Source of the DNA: Bacteroidales bacterium
Lineage (GTDB): Bacteria > Bacteroidota > Bacteroidia > Bacteroidales > UBA932
DNA length: 51,972 nucleotides
Assembly: GCA_017443465.1 (NCBI GenBank)
Contig: JAFRXO010000039.1
Coordinates: 1-51,972 of the forward strand
Reading direction: 5' to 3'
Below the pieces are notes generated by a model. It searched no databases and was not told the DNA's origin. It saw only the letters and a list, made by a program, of their open reading frames with translations. Positions 1,978 to 51,597 of this stretch are shown one piece after another; within the stretch, counting starts at the first letter, position 1; every line of letters starts with the position of its first letter. The position numbers and the translations under genes are program-made.

Positions 1978-3621
1978 ATGAAAAAATACTACTTCATTTT
2001 TCTGGCCGTGGCCATCTCAGGCATCGCCGGCGCATGCAGCAACAAGGGAAGCGATACCTCATATCTGGGTTACGACCCTGATGCGCAGCAGCTTCAGATC
2101 GGTGAAAACATTGCCGTTGTAAAAACCCAATATGGCACTGTGAAAGGCTTTATCTATCAGAATGTGAACACCTTCCTTGGTATTCCATACGGTGACGACA
2201 CTGGCGGTGAGAACCGGTTCATGCCTCCGAAACCCCCGAAACCTTGGGACGGAGTGCTTCCCACCGTGTGGTATCCCACCTCAGCTCCTCAGAGACCCTA
2301 CACGGAAGGCGCATCACCATATGCCCAGTTCCGGGACCGCTGGAACTACGACGGTTTCGGTGAAGACTGTCTTAAGCTTAACGTCTGGACTCCGGCACTC
2401 GATGCCGCAAGACGTCCCGTGCTGGTCTGGCTTCATGGTGGCGGATTTTCGGCAGGCAACGGCGTTGAGCAGGACGGCTACATGGGCGGCAACTTCGCCC
2501 GCAGGCACGATGTTGTGTTCGTATCCCTCAACCACAGGCTGAACTCTTTCGGATACAGCGACTTCGCAGGTGTCGCCGGAGAGAAATACAAACACTCCGG
2601 TAACGTAGGTATACTCGATATCATCCTTGCCCTTCAGTGGGTGCATGACAATATAGCGGCATTCGGCGGCGACCCTGGCAACGTGACCATTATGGGCCAG
2701 AGCGGCGGCGGCTCCAAAGTTACGATAGTTGCAGCAATGCCGGCAGCGAAAGGCTTGGTACACAAGGCTGTAGCTCTGAGCGGTGGCTCCACCAGGGCTT
2801 CCGACAAAGTCTCAGCCGAAGCTCTTGGAGCGCAGATACTCAAAACTGCCGGCCTGAAACCTTCCGAAATCGACAAACTTCAGCAGATGCCATGGCAGGA
2901 ATACTTCGCCCTTGCCAATAAGGCATCAGCTGAGCTCGCAAGAGAGAGCGGAGATCGCCGGTATCGCGGTTTCAGCCCTGTTGCCGACGACGTTGACATC
3001 CCTGCCGGAGACTTCTACACTTCAGGCCGCGATGACGTTCCCTGCGTACCGATGCTCCTGTGTACTACGACCAACGAGTTCGTTTCCGACCGCGACACGC
3101 CTGAGCAGGAAAAACTCACCAAAGAAGATATCGTAAAGATGATGGAGCCCCGCTTTGGAAAGAATTCCGCCGCGATATATGACGAGTTCGACAGGATATT
3201 CCCCGGCAACTCTCCATTCGGAGTATATTCAATCGCAAGTTCTTCGCGCAAGAACGTAGTGCAGATCGCTGACAACAAGCTCAAGCAGGGACAGAAAGTG
3301 TATATGGCTCTGTTCAACTGGTATCCGCCCATCTTCGACGGTCTTCCCAGGGCATTCCATTGTCTTGACATCAGTTTCTGGTTCAACAACACCGACCTTA
3401 TGTACTCTCACTCCGGGGGCGGGAAGGAGCCCCGCGTCCTTTCCGACAAGATGTCCGATGCCCTTGAAGCCTTCATGCGTACCGGCAACCCGAACTCAGG
3501 CAAGAAAAACTCCCTGCCGCATTGGCCCGAATATAACTCCGAAGAGGGTCCGGTAATGATACTCAACAACGTCTCCCGCGTGGAGAACGACCCGGACCGC
3601 AAGGCAAGGGAACTGATGTAA
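1978..3621 (+). CDS. Secreted type-B carboxylesterase (lipoprotein)
   Basis: This 547-residue alpha/beta-hydrolase is of the carboxylesterase type-B (pnbA-like) family. A lipobox (GIAGAC, Cys20) predicts an envelope lipoprotein. Visible family motifs are the FLGIPYG strand near residue 66, EDCLKLNVW near 129, the oxyanion hole HGGGF at 153-157, and the nucleophile elbow GQSGGG with Ser242. The acid is probably Glu367 (TTTNEF) and the histidine His461 (AFHCLD). The elbow is GxSxG with Gly in place of the common Ala. Family members hydrolyse carboxyl esters. In this carbohydrate-degrading neighbourhood it may remove acyl or methyl groups from plant polysaccharides, which is inferred. The length is normal for the family and the gene appears monocistronic. 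Confidence 0.9.
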   Translation: MKKYYFIFLAVAISGIAGACSNKGSDTSYLGYDPDAQQLQIGENIAVVKTQYGTVKGFIYQNVNTFLGIPYGDDTGGENRFMPPKPPKPWDGVLPTVWYPTSAPQRPYTEGASPYAQFRDRWNYDGFGEDCLKLNVWTPALDAARRPVLVWLHGGGFSAGNGVEQDGYMGGNFARRHDVVFVSLNHRLNSFGYSDFAGVAGEKYKHSGNVGILDIILALQWVHDNIAAFGGDPGNVTIMGQSGGGSKVTIVAAMPAAKGLVHKAVALSGGSTRASDKVSAEALGAQILKTAGLKPSEIDKLQQMPWQEYFALANKASAELARESGDRRYRGFSPVADDVDIPAGDFYTSGRDDVPCVPMLLCTTTNEFVSDRDTPEQEKLTKEDIVKMMEPRFGKNSAAIYDEFDRIFPGNSPFGVYSIASSSRKNVVQIADNKLKQGQKVYMALFNWYPPIFDGLPRAFHCLDISFWFNNTDLMYSHSGGGKEPRVLSDKMSDALEAFMRTGNPNSGKKNSLPHWPEYNSEEGPVMILNNVSRVENDPDRKARELM

Positions 3622-3686
3622 GACAATTTATTTTGGAAAATTGTTATCTTGCACTGTTTAAGTCAAACCAGTAGAAAGCAGAACTC

Positions 3687-4181
3687 ATGAAAAAATTGTT
3701 TCCCCTTTTTTTAGCGGCGATAATGATTGCCTTGGCCAGTGCTACGGGTTGTTCCAAGGCTGATGATGACGGCTCTGTCAAACGCTCAATGGTTGCCGCA
3801 GCTTACTATTCCATGGAAGCCGATGATGGAGTGAAATTCACGTTCTATCTTGTCGATAATAAAAATAACCTTGTCCAGAAACAGAACGAACCAAACGCAA
3901 TGGAAGTCACCAAGTATGTAATGGTTGAGGTTATGTCTTCATCGGAAACTCCTCAGGGAACATACTCTTTGGCGAATGTTTTTTCCGATCTGGATCCCGG
4001 TTCTGCCGTTGCCTTTGATAATTGCGGCAAGAGCCAAATTGGATATATTAAAAATGGAACCGTGACAATCGGTAGCAACACGATTTCCATTAACGGTTCC
4101 ACTGAAAAAGGTCAAGATTATAGTCTTTCCTTCTCCGGGTCTTTCCAAAAGACCGGTTACATTACCACATTCGTCAAATAG
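3687..4181 (+). CDS. Small beta-sandwich-like lipoprotein
   Basis: This 164-residue predicted lipoprotein has the signal peptide MKKLFPLFLAAIMIALASATGC and lipobox Cys about residue 22. The mature chain is a run of predicted beta strands with the pattern GTYSLANVF, IKNGTVTIGSN, YSLSFSGSF. This kind of pattern recurs in Bacteroidota surface lipoproteins of unknown role. No enzyme motif is seen. It lies 65 bases after the esterase gene and is convergent with the OmpA-domain gene. A short hairpin, ATAGGAC/GTCCTAT (4178-4199), overlaps its stop codon and could help terminate both. Function unknown. Confidence 0.75.
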   Translation: MKKLFPLFLAAIMIALASATGCSKADDDGSVKRSMVAAAYYSMEADDGVKFTFYLVDNKNNLVQKQNEPNAMEVTKYVMVEVMSSSETPQGTYSLANVFSDLDPGSAVAFDNCGKSQIGYIKNGTVTIGSNTISINGSTEKGQDYSLSFSGSFQKTGYITTFVK

Positions 4182-4204
4182 GACGTCCCAGAGTCCTATG
4201 GCCC

Positions 4205-5509: not shown

Positions 5510-5628
5510 GTCATATGATGTTTGTCGTAGCTACAAATGTCACTTTTCTAAAGGGCAAAAACACCACCCCAAAGGGTGGAAATCATCGGCTTTTCACCGT
5601 TTTTCCTCCCCTCCGCCGCATTTTTTCC

Positions 5629-5636
5629 TAACTTTG
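5629..5636 (+). promoter_or_regulatory. -7 box TAACTTTG five bases from the start codon
   Basis: TAACTTTG fits TAnnTTTG and ends only five bases before ATG 5642. Initiation a few bases after the box would give a leaderless or nearly leaderless mRNA. It argues against the longer upstream ATG (5576), which would precede the promoter. Confidence 0.5.
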
Positions 5637-5641
5637 TGTCC

Positions 5642-6880: not shown

Positions 6881-6968
6881 ACCAGGGACATGGCCATCAA
6901 CGCTGCCGCGGATTTTGTAAAGGAAAGATTTAATGCTATCTTGTGACGTATAATGAGGATTTTTATCT

Positions 6969-7319: not shown

Positions 7320-7346
7320 TTATTTATGACTCCAAAACTTATGCAT

Positions 7347-7877: not shown

Positions 7878-7882
7878 CCTCT

Positions 7883-8881: not shown

Positions 8882-8897
8882 ATGATTAGCATTTACA

Positions 8898-8925
8898 CAA
8901 AAATAATCAATTATCGTTATATTTG
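8898..8925. promoter_or_regulatory. Divergent -7 boxes between GH43 and esterase
   Basis: CAAAAATA at 8898-8905 reads TATTTTTG on the minus strand, 17 bases before the GH43 start. TATATTTG at 8918-8925 serves the plus-strand esterase, 34 bases before its ATG. The two boxes are only 12 bases apart, so the -33 regions overlap and the two promoters should influence each other. Confidence 0.6.
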
Positions 8926-8958
8926 ACGAAGTATAAACCTCATCCACTTCCCGGAATC

Positions 8959-9780: not shown

Positions 9781-9801
9781 GGTCTTTATTTCCAGGCAAA
9801 T

Positions 9802-11682
9802 ATGAGAATAACGAAGTCAATCACATGTATTTTGGCGGCAGCGCTGGCGGCACTTTCGCTGCCGATGGTGCAGAGCTGCTCAGGCAGACAGGATTCCGCG
9901 GGAAGCATTGTCCTCGAAACCGAATCATTCACCCTTACTGTGGGGGAAGATGCCGTAGTGCGGTCTCTTAAGGTCAAGAAGACCAATGAGGAAATGCTTG
10001 TGAGGGGTACTGACATTCCTCTGTTTTCGGTCACTCAGATCAGACCGTTTAACAATGAGATTAAGCTCGAGCACCCGAATACCAGGACGACTTACAAGGC
10101 GAACTCGCTCATATGGGATGGAGAGAAACTGACAGTCGGTTTTGACACTGCTCCATATGAGGCGGTGGTAAAAGTCGATGAGGGGCCCGGTTATCTGCGT
10201 TTCACCCTGGAGGATTTCATATGCGAGCCGGAAGACTATGGTGGTCTTGCCTTGGATGTTCCCCCTGTGGCCGAATTCAGGATCCTGCAACTGCCTGTCA
10301 GGGAGCGTAAGAATTTCGGAGAATGGCTGAACTGCATGTGGGATGATGCATCTGCTGTCGGCGTCGTGGGATGCGATCCCTGGTCACAGATATGGCATGA
10401 AGACCGTAACGGCGGCAGGATCCTCACGGCCGATCTTTTTTCCGGGAAGAAACTCTGCGGCGGTTCGGCTGCGATAATAGCGGCTGACGGCCGGGAGCCT
10501 TTCCTTGAGGCAATGGACAGGTTCGAAGTTGACCTCGGCCTCCCCAGGGGCGTCCAGAGCCGGCGTTCGCCTATGCTTAACCGCTCCATCTATTGGACAT
10601 CAGACGCGACTCCGCTCAACATCGACAAGCATATAGCCATTGCCCGGCAGGCCGGCCTGAAGATGATGCTGTTCTACTACACATGCTTCGTCAAGTCCAG
10701 CGGCTACCGTTATATGGGCGATTATGACCTTAGGGATGAGTATCCCGGAGGATATGATGACATAAAGAAAATGCTGGACAAGGTCAGGGAGGCGGGTATA
10801 ACTCCCGGATTCCACACCCTCCAGACCCATATAGGCATTGAAAGCCGTTATGTCAGGCCTTCCATCGATCCGCGCCTGAACCGCAAGCGCCTTTTCACTC
10901 TCAAAGAGGCTATCCCCGCCTCGGGCGACATCGCAGAAATATATGTCGAAGAGAATCCTGTTGATTCTCCGCTTCACGACTACACCCGTGTCATTGCGTT
11001 CGGCGGGGAAGGCTTTGCATATGAAGGCTATACCACTGAACCTCCCTACAAGTTCACCGGCGTGAAGCGCGGGGCATATGGCACAGACGCGGCCTCCCAC
11101 CGGAAAGGCGAGATAGGCGGCGTTCTCGACATCTGTGAATATGGGAGGGGAACCTCGATCTACCTCAACCAGGACACCGACCTCCAGGACGAAATCGCTG
11201 AAAAGATAGCACGCATATATGACTGCGGCTTTGAGTTCCTCTATCTTGACGGATCGGAGGGAGTCAATCCGCCGTGCGGAATAAATGTCGCCCTGGCCCA
11301 ATACAGGGTTACCTCGAAGTTCAGTAAGATGCCGGTTTTCACTGAAGGCGCCGCCAAGACCCATTTCAGCTGGCATTTCCAGGCCGGAGCGAACGCATTC
11401 GACGTGTTCCCTCCCGAGGTCTTCAAAGAGAAGATAGTGGAATTCCCATACGCTGAGGCCCCGAATATGGCCAAGAATATGACTCGGGTCGATTTCGGCT
11501 GGTGGAACATCAGGCCTGAGACCACCCCGGATATGTGGAACTTTGCGGACAGCCTGGCCGCCGAATGGCACTGCCCGGTCACTATCCAGTTCTCCCTCAA
11601 GGCCCTTGATGCCAATCCCCACGCCGATGAACTCCTCGCCGTCCTCAAGAAATGGGAGGAGTACCGCGAGGCGGAGAATTAG
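9802..11682 (+). CDS. Secreted TIM-barrel-like hydrolase of unassigned family
   Basis: This 626-residue predicted lipoprotein has a Cys in VQSCSG near residue 26. The N-terminal 250 residues look like a beta-sandwich, and the rest looks like a TIM barrel: [21 protein letters not shown] near 275, [12 protein letters not shown] near 330, and [12 protein letters not shown] near 480 carrying acidic residues at a strand end. The architecture resembles clan-D type glycosidases (GH27/31/36-like), but I do not recognise a catalytic signature for a named family. It follows the esterase by 21 bases, suggesting one operon, and its end overlaps convergent metY by four bases. Likely substrate: a plant side chain, inferred from context only. 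Confidence 0.7.
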
Positions 11683-12965
11683 ATCTTTTCGAAGGCCTGG
11701 TCGAGGTCGGCGATGATGTCGTCGATGTGCTCCGTTCCGATGGACAGGCGGATGGTAGACTGGTAGATGCCCTGGTCGGTGAGTTCGGCCTCCGTCAGCT
11801 GGGAATGGGTGGTGGTGGCAGGATGGATGACAAGGGATTTGACATCGGCCACGTTCGCAAGCAGGGAGAATATCTCCAGGGAGTCAATGAACAGGAAGGC
11901 ATCCTCCTTCCCTCCCTTGATTTCAAATGTGAAGATCGAGCCTCCTCCGTTCGGGAAATAACGCTGGTAGAGGGCGTGGTCAGGATGTGATGGAAGTGAC
12001 GGATGGTTTACCTTGGCGACCTTTGGATGATTGGCCAGATAGTCCACCACCTTCAGGGCGTTCGCCACGTGCCTTTCCACGCGGAGGGATAGGGTTTCCA
12101 AGCCCTGAAGGAAAATAAAGGCGCTGACAGGTGAGAGGGTGGAGCCGGTGTCCCTGAGCAGGATAGCCCTTGCTCTGGTAATGTAGGCAGCGGGCCCCAC
12201 CGCATCGGCAAAGACGATACCATGATAACTGTAGTCCGGCTCAGTGAACTGGGGGAATTTGCCGGACGCCTTCCAGTCGAAGTTCCCCGAATCGATGATT
12301 ACACCGCCTATGGCCGTTCCGTGTCCGCCGATGAACTTGGTAGCGGAATGGACCACTATGTCGGCCCCGTACTCGATCGGGCGGAGAAGGAACGGAGTGG
12401 CGAAGGTGTTGTCTATGATAAGGGGAATGTTGTGTGAATGGGCGATGGCTGCCACCGCCTGGATATCTATTAGGTTAGAATTGGGGTTGCCGAAGCTCTC
12501 GATGAACAGCGCCTTGGTCTCCGGACGGATTGCATTCTCGAAGTTGGAAAGTTCTGAAGGATCCACGAATGTGGTGGTGATGCCATATGGCACAAGCGTA
12601 TGCTGAAGGAGATCATATGTCCCGCCATATATGGTTTTGGCCGAGACGATGTGGTCTCCCGCGCGGGCGATATTCAGGATGGAATAGGTGATTGCTGCTG
12701 CGCCCGATGCCACTGCAAGTGCACCGACTCCGCCTTCAAGGGCGGCGATGCGCTGCTCCAGTACGTCCTGGGTGGAATTCGTCAGGCGGCTGTAGATGTT
12801 CCCGGGGTCGGAGAGCCCAAAACGGGCGGCGGCGTGCTCTGAATTATGGAACACATATGAAGTAGTCTGATAGATGGGGACTGCGCGTGAATCGGTTGCG
12901 GGATCGGCCTTTTCCTGGCCCACATGGAGCTGCAGGGTCTCGAAGTGTAGTTTGTTGGTAGCCAT
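11679..12965 (-). CDS. metY: O-acetylhomoserine aminocarboxypropyltransferase (sulfhydrylase)
   Basis: This 428-residue cytoplasmic PLP enzyme makes homocysteine (or cysteine) from O-acetylhomoserine and sulfide in methionine synthesis. The Cys/Met-metabolism fold type I signature is clear: [22 protein letters not shown] near 58, [10 protein letters not shown] near 87, the PLP-binding Asp in DNTFATPFL near 186, and the Schiff-base lysine Lys210 in [11 protein letters not shown]. Length and the long mid insertion ([16 protein letters not shown]) match the MetY rather than the MetB/MetC branch. It is divergent from an Lrp/AsnC regulator, which may control it in response to amino acids. No SAM riboswitch is seen in the 160-base gap. 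Confidence 0.93.
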
Positions 12966-12992
12966 ATGTCGTATTAGTTAAAATTGCTGTTG

Positions 12993-20658: not shown

Positions 20659-22629
20659 ATGAAAAATAGACTGTTAGCTATCCTGTCAGTTGTCGCAGCG
20701 GCGCTGCTGCTTTCCTCATGCGGCAACGGAGTCCCGAAAGGATTCCAGGAAGAGGCAGATGACACCTCGGCCGATGTCGTCGCAACCTTCGATTATGGAG
20801 CCATGGCGGCCCTCGGACATCCCCGCGTAATGATTACAGCGGACGGATTCAAGGACCTGTCCCGCAAACTGAAGAAAGGCGGTCCGGAATATTCTACCCT
20901 CCGGAAAATCAGCGACATATTAATAAACTTCGCTGACGCGCGCATCGAAAAGAACGACGTACCCGAGTACAAGCTTGATGATTCCAACACCCGCCTCCTC
21001 GGCCAGTCGCGCAAAACCCTCGAGCGTGTCACCTCTTTCGCATATGCCTACAGGATCACGAAGGATCCGAAATATCTCGAGGCGGCTAAGAAAGACATGT
21101 CTATAGTCTGTGCTTTCAAGGACTGGCATCCTTCGCACTTCCTTGATGTCGGAGAGATGGCCCTTGCGGTGGCGATCGGATATGACTGGCTTTACTATGA
21201 CCTTCCGCTGGACCTGAGGACGGCCGCCCACAGATGCATGGCGGATTATGCATTGAAGATATGCAGCGACCACTGGTATGTGCCCGCCGTAAACAACTGG
21301 AACCAGGTCTGCAACGCCGGAATGGTAGCTTCTGCAATTGCCATCTACGAGAAGGACAAGGCTCTCAGCACCAGGATCATAGAGGAGGCCATCCCCAGCA
21401 ACAAGCACGCCCAGGAGGGCATGTATTCTCCGGACGGCAACTATCCTGAGGGCTATGGCTACTGGAACTACGGAACCGGTTTCGAGACCCTTCTGCTCCA
21501 GATGCTGGACACCGCATTCGGCAACGATGCCGGACTTTCCGCGGTCCCCGGTTTCATGGACACAGGCAAATATATGCTTTACATGGCATCCCCGAACGAC
21601 GGGTGCTTCTCATATGCTGACGGAGCCAGTGAGACCGAAAGTCCACGTTCCGGAATGTTCTGGTTCGCTGCGAAGACCGGCGACCAGTCCCTGCTGATGA
21701 ATGAACTCCGTCTCCTTGACGAGGGCAGGTACACGGGCGGTGACATTGTGGCGGCATCCGTTCCCTGCTTCATCAAGGATTTCCCGATCGATTTGACAAA
21801 GACCGTCAAGCCTGAGAAAGACATATGGTACGGCAAGGGTCTGATTCCGGTCGTGATGGTACACACCGGATGGAACTTCGATGAAGGCGATGTCTATCTC
21901 GGCGCCATGGCCAGCGGAGCAGGTCACAGCCACGGACATCTGGATGCCGGAGCCTTTGTCTTCGAATCACAGGGCGTGCGCTGGTCAGAAGACCTCAAGT
22001 GCCCTGCATATGCGACCATGGAGAATGCCCTGAGCGCTGCCGGAGGCGGCTTCTGGGATATGTCCCAGAACAGCCTGCGCTGGGATATCCTCCGTCTGAA
22101 CAACGTCAACCACAGCACTTTACTGTTCGAGAACACCGACGGAAGCGTCAAGGACAGGCTGCATCCTACCGACCAGCTCGTAGCCCTCACCAGCATGGAG
22201 GAGGTCTATGACAAGCCGGAGTGCATGGGCGCGAAATTCGACCTTACCCCTGCATATGCAGACCAGGTGGCCTCCGTCCACAGGACGGCCCAGGTGATCG
22301 ACGGCAAGACCCTCCGCATCACGGATGAGGTTACGGCCAAGCCTAGGATGGCCGCCAGGATGCAGTGGAGGATGATGACTGCGGCCAAGGTCGAAGTCGC
22401 CGCCGACGGAGAGACCCTCACCCGGAACGGCAAGTCCCTTCTTCTGACCGCAGAGAGCTCGGATGCAGCCGTGAAGCCGGTTTATGCTTCCTGGTCCGCC
22501 GACCGTCCGGCTGGATGGACTCCACGTACATGGGATCCCTCCAACGCCGACTACACCATCGCCGGCTATTTTGCCGTGATTCCCGCCGGAAAGACCGTTA
22601 AATTCGTAACCACATTATCAGCCAAATGA
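20659..22629 (+). CDS. Heparinase II/III-like polysaccharide lyase lipoprotein (copy 1)
   Basis: This 656-residue lipoprotein (lipobox LSSC, Cys21) has an all-helical toroid-like domain (about 60-370), with NNWNQVCNAG at 212-221 and EGYGYWNYGTG near 264. A C-terminal beta-sandwich of heparinase II/III type carries GHSHGHLDAGAF near 422. Such proteins are lyases acting on uronic-acid-containing glycans; the PL family cannot be fixed by eye. The stop overlaps the start of a close paralogue by four bases (ATGA), indicating translational coupling. The duplicated pair and the following PL8 gene suggest a dedicated acidic-glycan pathway. Confidence 0.85.
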   Translation: MKNRLLAILSVVAAALLLSSCGNGVPKGFQEEADDTSADVVATFDYGAMAALGHPRVMITADGFKDLSRKLKKGGPEYSTLRKISDILINFADARIEKNDVPEYKLDDSNTRLLGQSRKTLERVTSFAYAYRITKDPKYLEAAKKDMSIVCAFKDWHPSHFLDVGEMALAVAIGYDWLYYDLPLDLRTAAHRCMADYALKICSDHWYVPAVNNWNQVCNAGMVASAIAIYEKDKALSTRIIEEAIPSNKHAQEGMYSPDGNYPEGYGYWNYGTGFETLLLQMLDTAFGNDAGLSAVPGFMDTGKYMLYMASPNDGCFSYADGASETESPRSGMFWFAAKTGDQSLLMNELRLLDEGRYTGGDIVAASVPCFIKDFPIDLTKTVKPEKDIWYGKGLIPVVMVHTGWNFDEGDVYLGAMASGAGHSHGHLDAGAFVFESQGVRWSEDLKCPAYATMENALSAAGGGFWDMSQNSLRWDILRLNNVNHSTLLFENTDGSVKDRLHPTDQLVALTSMEEVYDKPECMGAKFDLTPAYADQVASVHRTAQVIDGKTLRITDEVTAKPRMAARMQWRMMTAAKVEVAADGETLTRNGKSLLLTAESSDAAVKPVYASWSADRPAGWTPRTWDPSNADYTIAGYFAVIPAGKTVKFVTTLSAK

Positions 22630-33394: not shown

Positions 33395-36300
33395 TTACAG
33401 CCAGCGGGGATCTCCGGCGCCCGCAGCCTTGACCGAAGCGTCAGTGACCTTGAGGTTGTAGGCAGCCGAGTCGGTGCAGGGATCTGCAGAGAGGACTGCT
33501 CCGCCATTTCCGGTGGCAACTTCCTGGCTGATAGCGCTGGTGCCCTCCTTGAAGAAGGACTCTCCAACGTTGAAGAAGAAGTTGTTGTCCATTACCGGAA
33601 CGGTAGCCCCAGTCTTAGCGAGCTTGGAAGAGCCGCCGATGTTCACGAACAGGTTCTTGGACACGGTGTACTTGGAAGGAGTGTCTGCGCAGCTGCGTAC
33701 CCAGAGAAGACCGTTGCCTGCGTCGACTGAACATCCGGCGAAGGTGTTGTTCTTGATGGCGACGCTTCCTGCGATTCCGGCATCACAACGGAGGAAATCA
33801 CGTCCTCCGTTGTAGAATGTGGAATTGGACACTATGAGGGTGCCGATGGTTCCTTTGCGGATATCGAGCATTCCCTGACCTGTACCCATGTCATGCACCA
33901 GGTTCTTGTCAAATGTGACTGTCCCGAGGGCCGTTCCTTCCTGGCTGGCGTAGAAGACGCTCTTGGTGAAGCCGCTGAACTCGCAACCGCTTACCAGCAC
34001 CTTCTCTGCGCTTACTGCGGAAGCCAGGTTGATAGCGTTTCCGATGGCGTTGGATCCATTGAAATACAGGTTCTGGAGCACCAGGGTGCTGATTCCGGTC
34101 TTGAGCTGCAGGTTACCCAGGATTTCCGGGCCCTTGCCACCCCTGGTCTGGCCCACAATGGTGATGCCGGCCTCAAGGGCGATGTCACCGGTAGAGTTGT
34201 CGGTGGTACGGAAATCATATGTCCCGTACTTCAGGGTGACTGCGGTCTTTCCGGCGCTCACCGCGTTGAGGAACTCCTCTACGTTGGAAACGGTGATGTC
34301 GGTGATGACCTTGCCTGCATTCGGGTTCCAGTCGGGGTCACCGACGTTGCTTCCGAGCGCGAGGGCGTCAGTAAGAGTGTAGTTTCCGCCGGTGATATCC
34401 TTCACCGGGCTGGATGTCAGGACCACGCCGCCGCCTGCGAGAGCGTCCTCCTTGGGAATGCCGCCTCCGACATATGTCACGCCATCCGTGTCAAGATGCT
34501 TGAAATAGTCGTCGGTCACATTGTAGAAGAAGTTTGCGCTCATGGCGGGAACGGTGACTCCGGACTTGCCGAGGGTCTTCGTAGCCGTTTCCGAGAACAT
34601 GATGAGGTTGTTCTTCACCACATATGACTCAGGAGTCGAACGGACGTAAAGGATACCGTTGCTGTTGCCGGTGCAGGCATCGACTATGGTGTTGTTGTTG
34701 ATTGCCGCGGAACCGGTAATGGTATTTGCGTCCGAGCGGATGAGGTCACGTCCGCCGGTGATTGTGCTGTTCTCGATGGTTACCGAGGTGTAGCTTCCCT
34801 TGCGGATGTCGACCGTACCCTGGCCGGCGCCCAGTTCACTGAGGTTCACATTGCTGATAGTCAATGCAGAGACGGTAGATCCCACATTGTCATACCATAT
34901 GCTCTTGGCCACACCCTTGATCGAGCTGTTGCGGATTATCACCTTGTCGATCGTACCGGCGGTCTTCACATTGAAGAGGTTGCCGTTCGGACCGGTGATG
35001 TCCAGGTTCTCGACTATGATGCTTCCCATGTCGCCCTCGAGATCGATCTGAGGCAGGGTGACGGCGGGAGTTCCGCCGGACTCGCCGCTGAGGCGGACGT
35101 CAGCCACCACGATGACGGGAGACGCAGTCAGGTCATATGGAGAGCCGGAATTTGCGAAGGTGATCTCCTTCTTGCCGGCTGCTATGGCTGCATCGAACTC
35201 TTCGACGCTCTTGACGAGGAAGCTGTCTGTAGCGCCGCCGTCATATGAAGGATTCCACCTCGGGTCACCGACTTTGCTGCTCATTGCGAGTCCGCTGGTG
35301 AGGGTGAAGTCTCCGCTCGCGGCATTCTTGACAGGATCGGCAGTCATGACGACTCCGCCACCGGCGGTGGCAATCTCCTGGGTGATAATGCCGGTGAAGA
35401 CATTCTCTCCCATTCCATAGTAGAAGTTATTCGACATGGAAGGCACCTTCACCCCTTCCTTCTTGGCCAGGAGGGCGGTAAGGGTGTGGAAGAGGTTGTC
35501 CGTCACAGTGTAGGTGTTGTTGCTGGTAGACCTTACGTAAAGGACTCCGTTGCCGTTGTTGCCCGGATTGAGCGAGTAGAGGGTGTTCTTGCTGATGTCG
35601 ATGACACCGTTTACCACACCGCCGTCAACGCGGATGAAATCACGTCCGCCCGAGATGGTGCTCTCGGTGATCTGGATGGTGCTGTACTCTCCCTTGCGGA
35701 AGTCGAACATACCCTGGCCGGTGCCGTGGTTCGTGACAGTGATGCCCTTGAAGACCACTTCGCCGACATTGTTGCTCTCGGAGTTTCCGTAGATTACGCT
35801 CTTGGAATAACCGTCGATAGCGACGCCGGTGACCTTGAGGGAAGTCATTGCCGCGCCGTCAGCGGAGAACTCGATGAAGTTGCTCTGGCCGCCGGCCACG
35901 AACTTGATGTTCTCGAGAGCTACTTCTTCAGAAGCGCTGGTGAGAGAGAAGTTCGCTCCGGTAACCGTTGCCCCGTCCTGTCCGATGAGCTTCACGGAAG
36001 CCATCGGGGAAAGGGATTTGGTCTCAGCGGCGGAGAAGTCGAACGTACCGTCGCCCGCGAGGATGATCTCCTCCTTGCTGGCGGCGAGGGCAGCATTGAG
36101 CTGGTCCACATCGCGTACGATAGTTCCGGTCTCTCCACCGGAGTCAGCCTTCGGCAGGATGGCGAATGCGGCCGTTCCGGCAGCGGACTCGGTGTTGTAG
36201 ATGTCATCCTCACCAGGATTGGCGAAGACCTGGACAGTGTAGCTGCCCGGATCGAGCATTCCGACCGTAGTACCGGAGAGGGTGTAGCTCAGTGCTCCTT

Positions 36301-38629
36301 CTTCCACAGCATATGTCTTGCCGTTGAACATGACACTGTAGCCTCCGGCGTTCTCGACTGCCTCCCAGGAGATTACGATGTCGGTGGCTTCACCGGCGGT
36401 AACGCTTCCGGGTTCGGCCTTGGGAGCCGGTGCGGGCAGAGAAGTGTTGACAGGGCTTACGTCAGTGCTCCAGGCCAGCTTGCTGATAGCGGCGGGACCT
36501 GATACCCAGACATATACATATGATTCTTCGGTAATGGTGGTGATGGGGATCTTGACCGGAGTCGAAGACTCTGCGATAGCGGCAGCGCCGCCCTTTACGG
36601 TCACTGTGGAGCCGTCAAGCGGGCCTGTTCCTACTATTACGTGGCTGTTGGCGCCGGCGGGATCCTCGGCCTTGACTATGACAGAGCCGGGGCCTGCTAC
36701 CTTGAATGCGAAGTAGCCTTCAACCGGAACTCCCTTCTTGGAGGTGACGGTGGCTGCGGTGAAGTTCATCACTCCGCCGTCAACTGTGATGGCGTTGTCT
36801 CCGGATGCGTTGATGTAGAGAAGGTCGCGGACCATCTCCTTGCTTATGGTACCGGAGAACAGCTTGGCGTCGGAGAAGTTCCAGGTGTGGGAACCTTCCA
36901 CGGTGCCGAGGGTAAGGTCCTCGGGAGACTCTACATATGCAGTCCACCACCTCGGGTCTCCGACCTTGGCTTCTACGAGCTTGCTGTTGGTCAGGTTGAA
37001 CATTCCGCCGGCCGCGTTGAAGCAGGGATCAGCAGAAAGGGCGGTAGCGCTCGAGAGCGGGAAACGGGCATTGAAGAAGTTGTGGTCCGTGTCGCTGCTG
37101 GTTTCGGTCCTGTCGGGATCGTAGACTACATCATAGTACCAGTTGTTGTCATATGAAACTCCGTTCCAGTATTTGAAGCCGTCGAATCCGCCGGAAGAAA
37201 CCGTGGTGACGCCGTTTCCGAGCCTGGAGTACTTGCTCATCGACAGGATGAGGTTGTTCTTGAACGACATCTCTGTCGGAGCGGTCTGCAGCGAGATGAT
37301 ACCGCTGTTGTTGCTGTTGTTGGACAGGCATATGTTGTAGAGAGTGTTGCCGTCGAACTTGATGGCACCCAGTGACTGGGGGAAGTCGAGGCGGAGGAAT
37401 GCACGTCCGCCGTTGGAGATGGTGTTGTTGACCAGCTGGATCTCACCGATAATGGAAAGCGGAGCGCTGGCCGTGCCGCGGAAGTCGATCACATCGCCGC
37501 CGCCGAGACCGTTCTCATTGACCTTGTCGATGATACAGCCGTCCCATATGAGCTTGCCAAGGTTGAAGGGCTGTCCCCATTCGTAGATGAGACCCTTGGT
37601 GTACTCGGTGATGACGCAGTTGCGGAAGGTGAGTTCGCTGATTGCGACAGGATCGCTGATCTTTGCGTTCTCCTTGAGCTGGAAGGTGAAGCCGCGCTTG
37701 CCGTAACCGTTGAGCTCGACGCTCTCGAATATGATCGCGCCGGTGGTGGTAGCGATGGCGTTGAATTCACCCTTTATGACGGGCTTGGAACCGTCAGCGC
37801 CTTCCTCACCGACCATAGTCATCTCACCGACTATGTCCAGGACCTCTCCCTCTTCCATCTGGTAGGGAGAACCTTCCTGGAGAAGCTGGATCTTGACGCC
37901 CGGAGTCTTGAGGGCGGTGCGGAGCTCATCCATGCTCTTGACGATGGTGAAGCCCTCGGTGTTGGCTGCAGTGTAGGCGTTGATCTCGCCGCGGGGAGCC
38001 GAACTGAAGTAAAGGGTGACCACGTACTGGGTGAAAGGAGTGAGGTCGCTGATGGTTGCGCATGCGTTTTCGATGTCTTCCGGGGTCAGGGTGTAGGTGA
38101 CCTTATCGCCGTCACCGGTGAGGACTCCGTACTCGATGTGGTCCACGTCCTTGTAGTCGGAAACTTCTTTGGACCAGGCCACAGAGATGGAGGTAGAGGT
38201 CTTGTCAGTTACCTCCAGGAAGAGGTTGTCGCGCTCTGCATATGTCTTGACCGAGCTTTTGGCCACGGCCCATTTAGACTCGAGCAGTCCGGCGGCGGCG
38301 TTGGTCGCCTGGACACGCCACCAGTAGACTTCGTCAGCATCAAGCTGGATGGTGTAGGGAACGTCGGAAGCGTTGATGGTCTTGGAGAAGACCGATGAGG
38401 TCATCGCTTCGTCCGAGAAGACTTCAAGGTTGTACTGGGCGGCGTCCTTTGTGACCTTCCAGTCGAAAATCACCTTGTCCCCGCCTTTGATGTCGGCGGA
38501 GAGTCCCAGGGGTTCGAGGCACCTGGTAAGACCGAGGACCCCGTTCTCTTCCTCAATGGAGGAGCAGGCCGCTGCGAAGAGGCCGGCCACAGCCAGGGCG
38601 AGGAAACTTATTCTATTCATTATTTTCAT
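33395..38629 (-). CDS. Giant beta-helix surface lipoprotein of the pectin locus
   Basis: This 1744-residue predicted lipoprotein (AAAC, Cys22) occupies the SusE-like position after susD. Residues about 35-215 are two fibronectin-III-like domains. Four parallel beta-helix modules follow (about 226-560, 834-1126, 1136-1436 and 1444-1744), each built on the same plan: GQG..DxRKG, GGRDfiR.D, NG.L.VRS and a closing GDPRW. Module 1 is more distant. Residues about 575-725 and 735-825 are additional beta domains, the latter FnIII-like. This resembles the DUF4957/DUF5123 proteins common in Bacteroidota pectin loci. No lyase residues are obvious, so a glycan-binding role is likely, though lyase activity cannot be excluded. 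Last gene of the operon. Confidence 0.85.
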   Translation of the reverse strand: MKIMNRISFLALAVAGLFAAACSSIEEENGVLGLTRCLEPLGLSADIKGGDKVIFDWKVTKDAAQYNLEVFSDEAMTSSVFSKTINASDVPYTIQLDADEVYWWRVQATNAAAGLLESKWAVAKSSVKTYAERDNLFLEVTDKTSTSISVAWSKEVSDYKDVDHIEYGVLTGDGDKVTYTLTPEDIENACATISDLTPFTQYVVTLYFSSAPRGEINAYTAANTEGFTIVKSMDELRTALKTPGVKIQLLQEGSPYQMEEGEVLDIVGEMTMVGEEGADGSKPVIKGEFNAIATTTGAIIFESVELNGYGKRGFTFQLKENAKISDPVAISELTFRNCVITEYTKGLIYEWGQPFNLGKLIWDGCIIDKVNENGLGGGDVIDFRGTASAPLSIIGEIQLVNNTISNGGRAFLRLDFPQSLGAIKFDGNTLYNICLSNNSNNSGIISLQTAPTEMSFKNNLILSMSKYSRLGNGVTTVSSGGFDGFKYWNGVSYDNNWYYDVVYDPDRTETSSDTDHNFFNARFPLSSATALSADPCFNAAGGMFNLTNSKLVEAKVGDPRWWTAYVESPEDLTLGTVEGSHTWNFSDAKLFSGTISKEMVRDLLYINASGDNAITVDGGVMNFTAATVTSKKGVPVEGYFAFKVAGPGSVIVKAEDPAGANSHVIVGTGPLDGSTVTVKGGAAAIAESSTPVKIPITTITEESYVYVWVSGPAAISKLAWSTDVSPVNTSLPAPAPKAEPGSVTAGEATDIVISWEAVENAGGYSVMFNGKTYAVEEGALSYTLSGTTVGMLDPGSYTVQVFANPGEDDIYNTESAAGTAAFAILPKADSGGETGTIVRDVDQLNAALAASKEEIILAGDGTFDFSAAETKSLSPMASVKLIGQDGATVTGANFSLTSASEEVALENIKFVAGGQSNFIEFSADGAAMTSLKVTGVAIDGYSKSVIYGNSESNNVGEVVFKGITVTNHGTGQGMFDFRKGEYSTIQITESTISGGRDFIRVDGGVVNGVIDISKNTLYSLNPGNNGNGVLYVRSTSNNTYTVTDNLFHTLTALLAKKEGVKVPSMSNNFYYGMGENVFTGIITQEIATAGGGVVMTADPVKNAASGDFTLTSGLAMSSKVGDPRWNPSYDGGATDSFLVKSVEEFDAAIAAGKKEITFANSGSPYDLTASPVIVVADVRLSGESGGTPAVTLPQIDLEGDMGSIIVENLDITGPNGNLFNVKTAGTIDKVIIRNSSIKGVAKSIWYDNVGSTVSALTISNVNLSELGAGQGTVDIRKGSYTSVTIENSTITGGRDLIRSDANTITGSAAINNNTIVDACTGNSNGILYVRSTPESYVVKNNLIMFSETATKTLGKSGVTVPAMSANFFYNVTDDYFKHLDTDGVTYVGGGIPKEDALAGGGVVLTSSPVKDITGGNYTLTDALALGSNVGDPDWNPNAGKVITDITVSNVEEFLNAVSAGKTAVTLKYGTYDFRTTDNSTGDIALEAGITIVGQTRGGKGPEILGNLQLKTGISTLVLQNLYFNGSNAIGNAINLASAVSAEKVLVSGCEFSGFTKSVFYASQEGTALGTVTFDKNLVHDMGTGQGMLDIRKGTIGTLIVSNSTFYNGGRDFLRCDAGIAGSVAIKNNTFAGCSVDAGNGLLWVRSCADTPSKYTVSKNLFVNIGGSSKLAKTGATVPVMDNNFFFNVGESFFKEGTSAISQEVATGNGGAVLSADPCTDSAAYNLKVTDASVKAAGAGDPRWL

Positions 38630-40487: not shown

Positions 40488-43400
40488 TTAAAAGGTAAGA
40501 TTGACTCCGAATACGCATCCGATGCTCTTCGGATATGCAGAACAGTCCACTCCCGGGGTAAGCGGGGTGTCGCGCCTTGTGTCGACCTCGGGGTCGTAAC
40601 CGCTGTATCCGGTCAGGAGGAAGAGGTTCGTACCGGTCGCATAGACGCGGAGTTTCTTGATGTGCACCTTCTGGGTCACCTTCTCGGGGATGGTGTAGCC
40701 TATGGTCGCGCTCTGGAGGCGGAGGAAAGATCCGTCCTCTACAGCCCAGTCGCTGAATGTAGCGTTCTGGATGAAAGGCGACCACAGGGTCTTGCCGGCA
40801 TTGATGGCTTCGAGGGTCGCAGCGTCATTGATGAGCTCACCGGTGTTCCAGTCGATGTTGGTCCAGCGGTTCTCGACATCCATCATGTTGGAAAGGTTGC
40901 GCAGGGTGGTGTACTTGCGGGAAGAGTTGAACTCTATCTTGTTGGCATTGTAGACATCATTGCCGATCATGTAGGTGAAGTTGGCGCTGAAGTCGAAGCC
41001 CTTGAAGTAACCGTTGAATGCGAAACCGCCCTGGAAATCAGGAGCAGCGTTTCCGATGACGGTCCTGTCGGGAGTGGTGTCACCGTCAAGGCTCTTGTAC
41101 TTGGGAGCTCCGGGACGCAGGAAGGTGGAGGTCAGCATCGAGGTGCAGTCCACGACTCCTTCGTTGAGGACCCACTTGCTGCCGTTCCAGGTCATGTCAT
41201 TGGTGGTGTAGAAACCGTCGCTGATGTAGCCGTACATGTTGCCGAGGGGCTCGCCCTTCTCTACCAGGTAGTCTATACCGACTTCAGTGGACGGCCAGTT
41301 TGTCTGTCCGGGGATGGAGGGAACTCCGCCCAGGTCGGTGACCCTGTTCACATTGTAGGCGACGTTGCCCGTGATGTTGAGAGAGAAGTCCTCTTTGGTC
41401 ACGATGGGCATGTTGAGGGAGAGTTCGACACCCCTGTTGCGCACCGAACCGATGTTGCGGTACTGGTACAGGTAACCTGCGCCGCTGATCGGGTAGCGGA
41501 TAAGGAGGTCCTTGGTGTCGTTCTGGTAAACCTCGAGAGAACCTGTCACCTTGCTCCTGAAGAAGCTGAAGTCCACACCGATATTGTGGGTGTAGGTGGT
41601 CTCCCAGGTCAGGTCCGGATTGTCCATTATGGTACCGACGGTCATGTAAACATCACTGCTGGAGATCGAGTGCTCCTTGCTTATGGCTGCCTGCGGGGTG
41701 TAAACCTTTGCCATCAGGCCCGAGGGGATGTTGTTGTTACCGGCGGTTCCGAAGGAATAACGCAGTTTCAGCATGTCGATCCAGCTCTTGTCCTGGAGCC
41801 AGGGCTCGTTGGACATGGTCCAGGAAGCTGCGGCCGAGGGGAAGAAGCCCCAGCGGTTGCCCCTGGAGAATTTGGAGGAACCGTCGGCGCGGAGGGTGAG
41901 TCCTGCTGAATACTTATGCTTGTAGTCGTAGTTGGCACGTCCGAAGAAGGACACCAGGTTGTCGTCCGGATAATAGTAGTTGGAGATAGTGGTCGGAGTT
42001 CCCGATGTCATGAAGTGACGGGCCATGTCGAAATCGTAGAATGACGGCAGGCCATCGGCCTCAAGGCTGAGTTTGGTGGTCTTGGTGAGGGTCATCTCCT
42101 CTCCCAGGAGAACGTCCAGGCTGTGGTCCTTGTTGGGGATGAGCTCCTCGAAATTGTAGCTCACCGTGTTGGTGTTGCGCCAGCGGTGACGGCTGTCTTC
42201 AATGAGCTTCTCATTCGGGCCGTCGAAATTGGTCTGGCGCACATCATATGTACTCATTCCGTAGAACTTGTCCTCTTTCTGGCCATATACCTCCAGACCG
42301 CCTTCGGTCTTGAGTTTGAGGTTGTTGATGGGCTCCCATGTGAAGGCCGCGTTGGCATTCCAGGTCTCGCGGTCCTTGCGGCTGTCGTTGTCCCTGACAG
42401 CCTGGAGAGGATTGACTGCATCGCCATAATCTTCCTCGTCGTCCTCGCCAACGAAGTTGGTCGCTACGGGAATCGGCTGGTAGATGATGGAGTGTTTCAG
42501 TCGGCCGCTGCTTGAAGTTGATCTGGAAGCGTCATTGAGTGAATTGGCTCCGGCGCCGCGTACTACAGTGTGGGCGTACCTGACATTGACATCGACTGTG
42601 GTGCGCTCCCAGGGATTGAACTGACCCTTGAAGTTCAGGTTGTTCCTCCTGTAGTTGGAGTTCATCATGATGGCCTTCTCATCCAGGTGGGCATATCCCA
42701 GGGTCCAGCGGAACTTGTCCCCGTTGCCCGAGATCGAAACGTCGGTGGAGAAAGTAGTTCCGGTGTTGCCGAAGATCATTCCGACATAGTCGTTGGTCGG
42801 CAGTCCGATGTACTGGTCAATGTCGTCGAAAGATCCGAAATAGGAGTTATAGACGCTGGAAATGTTGCCTCTCAGCATTCCGAGCTCGTACTGGAACTTG
42901 GTGAAGTTCTCGGAATCCATCGGGACGATGGCGTTCTTGTTGGCCATCTTCTTGAATCCGTAGTAGGAGTTCAGGTTGACAGTGGTCTTTGCTCCCTTGG
43001 CAGCACCCTTGGTGGTGACGATGACGACTCCGTTAGCACCCCTCGATCCGTAGATTGCGGTCGAGAAAGCGTCCTTCAAGACGTCGATCGACTGGATCTC
43101 GGATGAGGAAATGTCGTTGATGGATTCAACCGGGAAACCGTCCACGATGTAGAGCGGGGAAGAGTCCTGGGTGATGGAACCGCCACCACGGACACGTACC
43201 TTGATGTCTGCGTCGGGATCACCTTCGGTGGTGATCACGGAGACACCGGCCATTTTTCCTGCAAGTGCCTGGCTAACAGATGTTACCGGTTGCTCGGCTA
43301 TCTTGTCTGCTCCGACTGATGAAACTGAACCGAGAAGATCGCGTCTCTTGACTGTGGCGTATCCCACGACGACTGTCTCGTCCAGGACATTGACGTCATC

Positions 43401-43697
43401 CTCGAGGACTACGTCAATAGTGGACTTGCCGTTTACGGGCACGGAAACGGTCTTCATTCCGATAAGGGAGAACTGGAGAACAGCGGTTGCCGGGTCCGGG
43501 ACTGTAATGCTGTAGTCTCCGTCAATTCCCGTACTCGCTCCCGTGCTGGTGCCTTCGATAAGCACGAAGGCTCCGATCACAGGTTCCCCGTTCGCGTCTT
43601 TGACTATACCGGTAACTGTCTTCGGCTGTGCCTGGAGCGACAGTGCGCATCCAAGGGCCACGAGGCAGACGGCAAGTCTGTAAATGATACCTCTCAT
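40488..43697 (-). CDS. SusC-like TonB-dependent outer-membrane transporter
   Basis: This 1069-residue outer-membrane importer has a signal peptide (1-23), a carboxypeptidase-regulatory-like N-terminal domain (about 27-105: VTGIVKDANGEPVIGAFVLIEG) and the TonB-box-like DETVVVGY. The plug follows (about 120-240: VRGGGSITQDSSPLYIVDGFPV, IYGSRGANGVVIVTTK). A 22-strand barrel ends in FGVNLTF with terminal Phe. It imports oligosaccharides with SusD using TonB energy. Its DNA contains only one CATATG in 3.2 kb, far below the rest of the window, which may reflect recombination or strong codon bias. No own promoter is visible in the 45-base gap upstream. Confidence 0.96.
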   Translation of the reverse strand: MRGIIYRLAVCLVALGCALSLQAQPKTVTGIVKDANGEPVIGAFVLIEGTSTGASTGIDGDYSITVPDPATAVLQFSLIGMKTVSVPVNGKSTIDVVLEDDVNVLDETVVVGYATVKRRDLLGSVSSVGADKIAEQPVTSVSQALAGKMAGVSVITTEGDPDADIKVRVRGGGSITQDSSPLYIVDGFPVESINDISSSEIQSIDVLKDAFSTAIYGSRGANGVVIVTTKGAAKGAKTTVNLNSYYGFKKMANKNAIVPMDSENFTKFQYELGMLRGNISSVYNSYFGSFDDIDQYIGLPTNDYVGMIFGNTGTTFSTDVSISGNGDKFRWTLGYAHLDEKAIMMNSNYRRNNLNFKGQFNPWERTTVDVNVRYAHTVVRGAGANSLNDASRSTSSSGRLKHSIIYQPIPVATNFVGEDDEEDYGDAVNPLQAVRDNDSRKDRETWNANAAFTWEPINNLKLKTEGGLEVYGQKEDKFYGMSTYDVRQTNFDGPNEKLIEDSRHRWRNTNTVSYNFEELIPNKDHSLDVLLGEEMTLTKTTKLSLEADGLPSFYDFDMARHFMTSGTPTTISNYYYPDDNLVSFFGRANYDYKHKYSAGLTLRADGSSKFSRGNRWGFFPSAAASWTMSNEPWLQDKSWIDMLKLRYSFGTAGNNNIPSGLMAKVYTPQAAISKEHSISSSDVYMTVGTIMDNPDLTWETTYTHNIGVDFSFFRSKVTGSLEVYQNDTKDLLIRYPISGAGYLYQYRNIGSVRNRGVELSLNMPIVTKEDFSLNITGNVAYNVNRVTDLGGVPSIPGQTNWPSTEVGIDYLVEKGEPLGNMYGYISDGFYTTNDMTWNGSKWVLNEGVVDCTSMLTSTFLRPGAPKYKSLDGDTTPDRTVIGNAAPDFQGGFAFNGYFKGFDFSANFTYMIGNDVYNANKIEFNSSRKYTTLRNLSNMMDVENRWTNIDWNTGELINDAATLEAINAGKTLWSPFIQNATFSDWAVEDGSFLRLQSATIGYTIPEKVTQKVHIKKLRVYATGTNLFLLTGYSGYDPEVDTRRDTPLTPGVDCSAYPKSIGCVFGVNLTF

Positions 43698-48279: not shown

Positions 48280-48316
48280 CCGTTATCGTATGATAAGTCA
48301 ATGTGGTATCCGGGTG

Positions 48317-48386
48317 CAAATATACTAATTTTTTCAGTTTTGCAAACGTTTGCAGAAATTATTTTCAACGTTTTTGCCTATATTTG
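48317..48386. promoter_or_regulatory. Divergent GH28/GH127 promoters around a LacI-type operator
   Basis: CAAATATA at 48317-48324 is TATATTTG on the minus strand, for the pectin operon. TATATTTG at 48379-48386 drives GH127. Between them lies the 14-base perfect palindrome TGCAAACGTTTGCA (48341-48354), 16 bases from one box and 24 from the other. A second, weaker half-operator CAACGTTTTTGC is at 48366-48377. One bound LacI protein would block the -33 regions of both promoters. Confidence 0.8.
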
Positions 48387-48429
48387 ATGATAACGCGCAT
48401 AATTAATCCCATTACAATATCTTTTTGAC

Positions 48430-50325: not shown

Positions 50326-50385
50326 TTTTTGGTTATTACGAAATTTTTTATATATAGCAGATACAATTACCAAACCATCAAAAAA

Positions 50386-50454
50386 ATGACCCGGATCAAG
50401 AAATAACTCCCACTGTTCTTTGCGTTCCTGCTTCTTCTGCCGGCAGGCAGCCTT
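50386..50454 (+). pseudogene. Signal peptide of OmpA-like gene interrupted by TAA
   Basis: ATG 50386 is in frame with the downstream OmpA-like gene. It reads M-T-R-I-K-K, then TAA at 50404-50406, then L-P-L-F-F-A-F-L-L-L-L-P-A-G-S-L-M-A-Q. Without the stop this is a complete, typical signal peptide cleaved after an Ala-containing site. The stop therefore separates the basic N-region from the hydrophobic core. A mutation, a base-call error in the assembly, or readthrough would each explain it. Confidence 0.75.
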
Positions 50455-51597
50455 ATGGCGCAGGAGCCTTACCGTGACGCCCGCACCGGCACTGTGGGCC
50501 TCCGTCTTGAAGGTGGAACTTCATGGTCGTTCGGTTCTTCATTCGAGAACGTCGGCGCCAACGAGGTCAACCTGATCCAGCCCTATGCAGGGGCAGGGTT
50601 GTTCGTGAACATCCGTCCATGGGTCCGCGTAGGAGCGGACTACAGTTACACACAGATGGTCCGCGAACAGCTGTTCACTTCTCTCCCCGCCCTTACAGGC
50701 GATGGTATTCTCGCGGGAAGCGCGGAAGGCTCCATATACCGCGATTTCAAGACCCGTTTCCACGGTGCATCGCTCACCGGTGAATTCAACCTGATGGAGA
50801 TCGGCAAGAACAAAGGGGCCGGTCGTTTCGGGATGTGGCTCGGTACCGGGCTCGGCTGCCTTTTCTCACAGGGGAACACCTGGGACATCATAGTGTCGAA
50901 CGTACTCAACGCAGACAAGCAGGTTGTCCGTTTCGGTGGTCACAACGAGCCTCATGATTACAATGCCCTGTTCATTCCGGTAACCTTGTCCCTGGAGTAT
51001 GCCTTCCTTCCCCAGGTTGCCCTGAGCGTCGGAGGAGGCTACCGTTTCCTTCCCGGGAAGCAGGACCTCGCTCCCAAGAGCCAGGCATATGCCAAGGTGG
51101 GCCTCGTGTTCAACCTGACAGGGAAACGCTATCGTGCGAAACAGGCAAGACCGGTGGTTGATCCCGGCTATGCGGCTCCTATCCATGACACTGTCTATGT
51201 GGAGAAGATCGTAGAGAAGCCGGTCGAGAAACTGGTCGAAGTGCCCGCACAGAACGAAGTGACCGATGACATGCTGCCGTTCGTGACCTTCGTGCGCGGT
51301 TCCTCGGTACTTGACGAAAGCGTCAATGCATCAGCGCTTTCATCTCTCGTCTCAGTCCTGAAGGCCAATCCTTCAGTGCGTTTCGACATCCTCGGCTGGA
51401 CCGACCACACTGGCACAGACGAAATCAACGCACCTCTGTCCACCAGGCGTGCTGAAGCCCTTCGCGACTATCTTGTCGGCCAGGGAATAGACGCTTCGAG
51501 GATTGTTACGGTGGAAGGTCGCGGCAAATCTCTTCTCACAGGCGAGGAGGCTTTCAGCGCCATTGCACGCAAGGCCCAGGCCGTTATCGTTAAATAG
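50455..51597 (+). CDS. OmpA-like porin with N-terminal barrel (start disrupted)
   Basis: From ATG 50455 the frame encodes 380 residues. An N-terminal outer-membrane barrel covers about 10-225 (GTVGLRLEGGTSWSFGSS, FIPVTLSLEYAFLPQVALSVGGGYRF). A Pro/Lys linker (VEKIVEKPVEKLVEVP) leads to an OmpA peptidoglycan-binding domain (about 275-380: TFVRGSSVLDESV, DHTGTDEINAPLSTRRAEALRDYL). The true start is probably 50386, giving a signal peptide, but TAA at 50404 breaks it. As it stands, translation from 50455 would lack an export signal. Otherwise the reading frame is intact to its end, which favours a recent or artefactual stop. Confidence 0.82.
   Translation: MAQEPYRDARTGTVGLRLEGGTSWSFGSSFENVGANEVNLIQPYAGAGLFVNIRPWVRVGADYSYTQMVREQLFTSLPALTGDGILAGSAEGSIYRDFKTRFHGASLTGEFNLMEIGKNKGAGRFGMWLGTGLGCLFSQGNTWDIIVSNVLNADKQVVRFGGHNEPHDYNALFIPVTLSLEYAFLPQVALSVGGGYRFLPGKQDLAPKSQAYAKVGLVFNLTGKRYRAKQARPVVDPGYAAPIHDTVYVEKIVEKPVEKLVEVPAQNEVTDDMLPFVTFVRGSSVLDESVNASALSSLVSVLKANPSVRFDILGWTDHTGTDEINAPLSTRRAEALRDYLVGQGIDASRIVTVEGRGKSLLTGEEAFSAIARKAQAVIVK

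Follow-up and report, generated by a model that had tools for sequence, protein, structure and literature searches.

The question raised by this locus is why a single six-letter word, the palindrome CATATG, is written in it so many times. The window (one whole contig of 51,972 bases, analysed at its full length) belongs to the genome of a Bacteroidales bacterium, here called G000 (2,645,555 bases in 81 contigs, 96% complete), which like its sister species is an uncultured gut bacterium, and it carries 111 copies of CATATG against 9.6 expected from 100 dinucleotide-preserving shuffles (standard deviation 3.1, largest count 19). The initial annotation had counted about 110 copies with 11–13 expected, and had suggested that the DNA word as such is under selection or mutation bias, in the manner of the highly iterated palindrome (HIP) HIP1 of cyanobacteria; the count was borne out, and a pressure on the word is supported by the evidence from three frames, spacers, start codons and a sister species given below. 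In all of these positions it is the exact hexamer that is favoured, and it is kept between the two species. The best reading of the data is that CATATG is a new word of the HIP type, and that molecular drive or selection maintains it at each site through a candidate factor which recognises CATATG.

The whole genome was counted along with the window. CATATG occurs 4,230 times in G000 (1.60 per kb) vs 79 times for the reversed control word GTATAC, and 3,353 times in the sister species, here G691 (about 2.1 Mb, a rounded size; 79% complete), which is again about 1.60 per kb. Among 1,079 distinct Bacteroidota genomes counted (from counts in 400 genomes within the genus, 294 within the order and 392 within the phylum) these two stand alone at this density; the next densest, G480, has 0.72 per kb (2,028 sites), and at the level of the genus high density was seen in 2 of the 400 genomes. 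CATATG is the top hexamer of the window by order-2 z-score, ranks first by synonymous-shuffle z in the coding sample of G000 (539,705 readable bases, 20% of 2.65 Mb) and heads the 2,080 hexamers of the G691 sample. Some stretches read as N (7 of 35 in G000, 5 of 26 in G691, together with L038 and L081), and the main observed/expected values were computed without them. A count against an order-4 Markov model, which had been proposed as a check, gave an excess of 1.2-fold only (93 expected and 111 seen in the window; 393 and 471 in the first sample). This model is fed by the pentamers of the word, and since most of the CATAT and ATATG pentamers in the window lie within CATATG (111 of 160 and 111 of 174) the test was set aside as insensitive and is not taken as a refutation. 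As a separate observation, GTATAC is scarce in several members of the genus (G000, G691, G450, G068 and G022), which have 9 to 79 copies each, and the G000 coding sample has 5 copies where 48 would be expected; the small samples of G068 and G450 are without clear CATATG excess.

Codon and amino-acid use do not account for the excess. Its disappearance under control of dipeptide and codon-pair use had been named beforehand as a refutation. When synonymous codons were shuffled in the G000 coding sample with the protein sequence kept, 453 CATATG were seen vs 91.6 expected (standard deviation 7.8), and the same shuffle in three relatives gave 9, 10 and 27 seen vs 14.9, 10.8 and 15.3 expected. The places which can hold CATATG without a change of protein, namely [ASTP]Y[VADEG], xI[CW] and His-Met, were taken as usable contexts. 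In G000 the word fills 528 of 705 (75%), 246 of 346 (71%) and 130 of 139 (94%) of them respectively, so the sites lie in all three frames as first described, and in G691 it fills 135 of 187, 70 of 107 and 26 of 34. The corresponding numbers in 68 related genomes (79 other loci minus 11 of a second clade with CATATG excess) are 119 of 1,321 (9%), 43 of 600 (7%) and 31 of 76 (41%). Relative to in-genome controls, CATATG is raised 5.7-fold in the Tyr and Ile contexts of G000 and 3.1-fold in His-Met. Tyrosine is written TAT at a frequency of 0.97 in the CA_G context; the earlier statement that TAT is used mainly there holds for this context, but TAT is also frequent elsewhere (0.40 to 0.70). Amino-acid choice seems to be touched too, given that the contexts themselves are enriched, with observed/expected values for Tyr, Ile and His-Met of 1.18, 1.39 and 1.53 in G000, 1.15, 1.56 and 1.30 in G691 and 0.93, 1.13 and 0.37 in the 68 genomes.

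Outside the reading frames the picture is alike. Spacers hold 15 CATATG in 15.4 kb of G000 and 12 in 3.9 kb of G691 vs 2 in 36.0 kb of the 68 related genomes, which is an excess over relatives of 17-fold and 55-fold respectively. ATG starts are preceded by CAT in 53 of 313 cases in G000, 13 of 74 in G691 and 8 of 703 in the related genomes, a difference of about 15-fold, and the six start-codon overlaps named for the window are all CATATG at predicted starts, the first of them at 7344 and not 7345. The force acts on DNA, within genes and outside them.

The shape of this force was analysed over 1,197 contexts of G000, of which 908 are filled by CATATG. Their use is 0.77 when the nearest other site lies within 0–50 bp, 0.78 at 50–100, 0.75 at 100–200, 0.76 at 200–400 and 0.86 at 400–800 bp; it is 0.58 (32 of 55) beyond 800 bp and 0.25 (6 of 24) beyond 1,600 bp. 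Use is flat along genes (0.73 to 0.80), varies little between them (chi2/df 1.15 in 197 genes with at least three contexts), and the spacing of sites is random (coefficient of variation 1.03); helical spacing and flank extension were examined and gave no clear signal. The drop at long distance may come from foreign or misbinned pieces, since runs of unused contexts sit in small contigs and in a few stretches of otherwise normal contigs. The small contigs L007, L015 and L017 carry 5 CATATG in 20.4 kb vs 1.86 per kb in large stretches and are probably misbinned or newly acquired DNA. Unused runs in normal contigs (L146:6724-12672, L016:661-3254 and L171:15025-19301, with a rhamnosidase of GH106, a reverse transcriptase and a SusD-type gene) are perhaps recent arrivals.

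The force is also exact. In the G000 contexts where it is possible, CATATG is favoured 8- to 38-fold over each of ten strand-specific one-mismatch words, and these span all nine double-stranded neighbours. In the G000 context test, CGTATG, CTTATG, CATACG, CCTATG, CATTTG, CATCTG, AATATG and TATATG stand at 0.15 to 0.43 of expectation, GATATG at 0.71 and CACATG at 0.09, so one-letter neighbours are disfavoured where CATATG is possible, transitions and transversions alike; the 68 related genomes give 0.54 to 0.98 for CATATG and 0.51 to 1.62 for the neighbour words. A mismatch ladder in G000 contexts allowing CATATG has no grading, with one-mismatch words at 0.09–0.31 and two-mismatch words at 0.19–0.44 of expectation. 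Against synonymous expectation the outer one-off variants stand at 1.21–1.54 and the inner ones at 0.50–1.11, the outer variants being at 0.30–0.71 in the G000 context test. A flank effect is seen in the Tyr frame, where use runs from 0.54 when Gly follows to 0.83 when Ala follows and from 0.60 after Pro/Ser to 0.86 after Ala; flank effects differ between frames and are inconsistent.

Conservation of the sites was analysed between the two sister species with one genome per species. Over 51,207 aligned bases with a fourfold-site identity of 0.625, 69 of 91 sites of G000 and 69 of 78 sites of G691 are shared; of nine control word sets, eight are retained at 0.33 to 0.53 (the ninth has 2 of 2), and all hexamers at 0.455. 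The conservation of positions that had been proposed for testing is above that of these eight control sets. Of 87 contexts with the same amino acids, 66 have CATATG in both sisters, 7 in one and 14 in neither. A turnover model in which 31 control words set the neutral clock and the background is 0.06 predicts 6.9 discordant contexts under fixation bias, 1.8 under lowered loss alone and 27.5 under raised gain alone. Mutation bias acting through gain only is rejected, and protection from loss as the sole cause is disfavoured; the model fit shows, on small numbers, that sites are gained more often and lost less often than under neutrality, which amounts to a fixation bias (S about 3–4). The first proposal of selection or mutation bias is narrowed by this to the extent that fixation bias fits and gain-only mutation bias does not.

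Molecular drive is the most likely cause of the iteration, and we give it an even chance of being right. It is inferred because the sites are favoured regardless of neighbouring sites, of the gene and of the kind of base change. A candidate protein would read CATATG and bias repair or recombination, DNA carrying the word would replace DNA that has lost it, and the sites would need no function of their own. In its more specific form, which is held more tentatively, the drive may be independent of methylation, act on a 6-bp palindrome, fill about 70–95% of the coding positions able to hold it and steer pairs like His-Met, a function of the site being unneeded.

Several results weigh against this interpretation. 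The conservation of CATATG is high, not unique, as it ranks 16 of 443 hexamers with at least 25 cases. The turnover fit depends on 7 discordant contexts and on assumed neutral values: nine settings give 3.8–16.8 for fixation bias, 0.9–6.9 for loss only and 25.1–27.9 for gain only, and one loss-only setting fits too. Biased conversion and direct selection of equal S are indistinguishable with one genome per species. The smaller G691 sample has no depletion of CGTATG (9 vs 5.0), CATACG (5 vs 5.0) or AATATG (2 vs 1.8), and outside CATATG-allowing contexts AATATG, GATATG, TATATG and CAAATG are undepleted (1.11 to 1.54). The spacer excess over an order-1 expectation is only 4.1-fold in G000 and 11-fold in G691 (0.3 in relatives), and convergent spacers of G000 hold no CATATG in 2.6 kb. 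No protein reading CATATG was found in a search aimed at five methyltransferase families and Vsr.

Direct natural selection, in which CATATG would provide binding sites for an abundant chromosomal protein such as a nucleoid organiser or a replication or segregation factor, is an unlikely explanation, though one which accounts equally well for the conservation between species and the fixation-bias turnover. The action of the force on DNA in genes and outside and some dependence of use on the flanks of Tyr-frame sites (0.54–0.86) would also suit it. Drive is preferred over it because selection for a function should give diminishing returns near existing sites and a ladder of half-good sites: contexts less than 50 bp from a site are used like those 200–400 bp away, spacing is random, words with one mismatch are about as low as those with two, and the flank dependence is inconsistent between frames. 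To judge from the sequence, exactness and independence of density argue against a nucleoid-protein binding site.

A drive by DNA uptake, with preferential uptake of DNA carrying CATATG and its spread by recombination as in Neisseria and Haemophilus, is improbable. It would yield a genome-wide fixation bias and equal density in sister species, and a molecular-drive argument for uptake words is given in PMC1939737; but by general reasoning a hexamer is short for self-recognition, the over-representation of mismatched forms described in PMC1939737 is graded whereas mismatched forms are depleted here in contexts allowing CATATG, and saturation within fragments should cut use near another site, where no such drop is seen.

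Mismatch repair linked to methylation, by which a CATATG methyltransferase and a methyl-directed nick would create and protect the word as proposed for cyanobacterial HIPs, is improbable too. The HIP densities of about 500–2,500 per million in PMC4390886 agree with 1,600 per million here, but under that model sites should saturate at a density of about one per 1,000 bp (PMC4390886), and the use of CATATG is undiminished near other sites. The solitary methylase which the initial annotation had suggested looking for was searched for in five Pfam families, and none was found in G000 or G691. For PF01555 (22 genomes searched), PF02384 (15), PF02086 and PF00145 (13 each) neither of the two gave a match; matches were obtained in 7, 7, 1 and 2 other genomes searched and in 11, 13, 4 and 10 of 14 control genomes respectively. 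PF07669 (15 genomes) matched weakly twice in G000 and once in G691, each time below its cut-off; these were rejected as DNA methyltransferases, being PrmC in both genomes and a TrmN-like protein in G000 which is under NCBIfam's own cut-off. Vsr, present in 3 of 13 genomes, was not found in G000 or G691. The negative result covers these five families and the binned contigs, novel families and plasmids lost in binning being outside its scope.

Codon, dipeptide or base-specific mutation bias is hardly credible: it has on its side that the weaker CATATG excess of relatives goes with a general excess of ATAT and that the excess of G480 is absent in the Ile frame, but it is contradicted by the synonymous shuffle, by the likeness of three frames, spacers and starts, by the involvement of every kind of base change, and by the 7 discordant contexts where gain-only turnover predicts 27.5.

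The distribution of the word in relatives was surveyed as well. G691 is the sister of G000 among the species compared (a syntenic region with 37 reciprocal gene pairs), and over five shared genes each its mean identity to G000 is about 87%, vs about 62% for G374 and G463. Contig 40 of G691 matches a contig of the metagenome-assembled genome RUG14879 identically over 14,600 bases, and a tree of one 784-residue protein from 81 genomes pairs G000 with RUG14879 (support 100, stem 0.39), the deep forks near the root being weak. A kinship to G463 and others suggested by the window gene at 11679-12965 (92%) was rejected as misleading in view of the five-gene averages. The two-species lineage probably belongs to the genus Candidatus Cryptobacteroides, a name taken from related records.

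In 20 stretches from 20 other genomes of the genus (one all N, one of 4.9 kb) no palindromic hexamer is comparably prominent, and among 80 loci the CATATG of the sister is the strongest palindrome (z 13.6), followed by ATATAT (10.0) and TCCGGA (9.5). A milder palindrome excess across the group is seen for TCCGGA, 1.7-fold above synonymous expectation in the 68 related loci (1,079 vs 626). The CATATG excess of the second clade was not accepted as a HIP, as the word ranks 22 of 2,080 there (eight loci, 107 vs 58) within a general ATAT excess. In G384 CATATG (24 vs 6, rank 3) is the top palindrome by ratio, AATATG and ATATAT are also raised, and the excess is probably the same general ATAT effect, less probably a weak instance of the iteration. 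That of G480 lies in the Tyr and His-Met frames, with 2 of 37 in the Ile frame. In G575 all 13 His-Met pairs are written CATATG, yet this genome avoids CATG words generally: 100 kb (stretches L061-L065) hold GCATGC 0, CCATGG 1 and TCATGA 1 times, each vs 26–36 expected, and CACATG/CATGTG 0 times vs 24 expected, a strong avoidance as a restriction system might cause.

The features of the window are collected in Table 1. The absence of CATATG from the first 2.3 kb had been noted correctly. The claimed depletion of susC did not hold up and is explained by amino-acid content. Carbohydrate-active genes are abundant (GH43, two copies; GH20; GH127; two heparinase II/III-like; a BNR domain plus GDSL lipase; a LacI regulator; an MFS transporter). 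A phage-family scan of ten window proteins gave weak matches only, mostly to families of unknown function and endolysins.

Table 1. Coordinates of CATATG sites and related features in the window (ORF, open reading frame)
Feature	Position	Strand	Remark
Span of the 111 CATATG sites	2318..51091	.	First site at 2318, last at 51086; 106 of 126 usable window contexts filled
Site-free stretch	1..2317	.	Small ORFs, wholly inside, with one usable context in all, unfilled
Spacer site between divergent genes	5512..5517	.	Sister has a site at equal offsets in the orthologous spacer (L176:2722)
CATATG over the predicted start codon of a Cys/Met-metabolism PLP enzyme gene (11679-12965, minus)	12963..12968	-	
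Tyr-frame example GCA TAT GCC TAC AGG in a heparinase II/III-like gene (20659-22629)	21041..21046	+	
Longest window gene, with DUF5123/DUF4957 repeats	33398..38629	-	13 of 13 usable contexts are CATATG
Gene named susC in the initial annotation (putative name)	40491..43697	-	One usable context, filled

CATATG provides a clean case for studying how a particular DNA word becomes favoured in a genome. The study of HIP1 is tangled by two methyltransferases; the word described here is simpler, belongs to a different phylum, seems to lack a methyltransferase and has many control genomes in the genus. The size, exactness and density-independence of the force become measurable, selection on sites and drive by repair or uptake machinery become directly testable against each other, and amino-acid sequence, the case suggests, can be shifted by a force of this kind. 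CATATG density may also mark foreign or misbinned contigs and could help in cleaning the G000 bin. No report of iterated CATATG in Bacteroidota was present among the literature matches listed.

CATATG is the site of NdeI, and it is like a restriction-modification site in being an exact 6-bp palindrome. Restriction sites are usually avoided and not accumulated, whereas CATATG is about tenfold in excess in the window, with no partner methyltransferase of the five families found. With the DNA uptake sequences of Neisseriaceae and Pasteurellaceae it has in common that abundant short words are involved for which molecular drive has been argued (PMC1939737). Those sequences are described there as non-palindromic with graded mismatched forms, while CATATG is a 6-bp palindrome which is all-or-none in the contexts allowing it, no graded excess of mismatched forms being found in these contexts of G000. 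The closest likeness is to the cyanobacterial HIPs. HIP1 (GCGATCGC) has been known since 1995, as yet without a settled role according to PMC4390886, where alternate HIPs such as GGCGCC in Calothrix PCC 7103 are limited to few genomes, HIPs accompany methyltransferases (for HIP1 generally, not universally) and a model of methylation-directed repair is proposed. Like them, CATATG is a short exact palindrome, the top word of its length, at a density within about 500–2,500 per million (4,230 in 2.65 Mb) and far above expectation, with an excess beyond codon and amino-acid use. It differs in its AT-cored hexamer, in its occurrence in Bacteroidota, in a use independent of local density and in that no encoded methyltransferase of the five Pfam families was found in G000 or G691. 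CATATG behaves like a HIP, by its methyltransferase feature not of the usual cyanobacterial sort, and in comparison with HIP studies the share of usable amino-acid contexts filled by such a word has here been measured.

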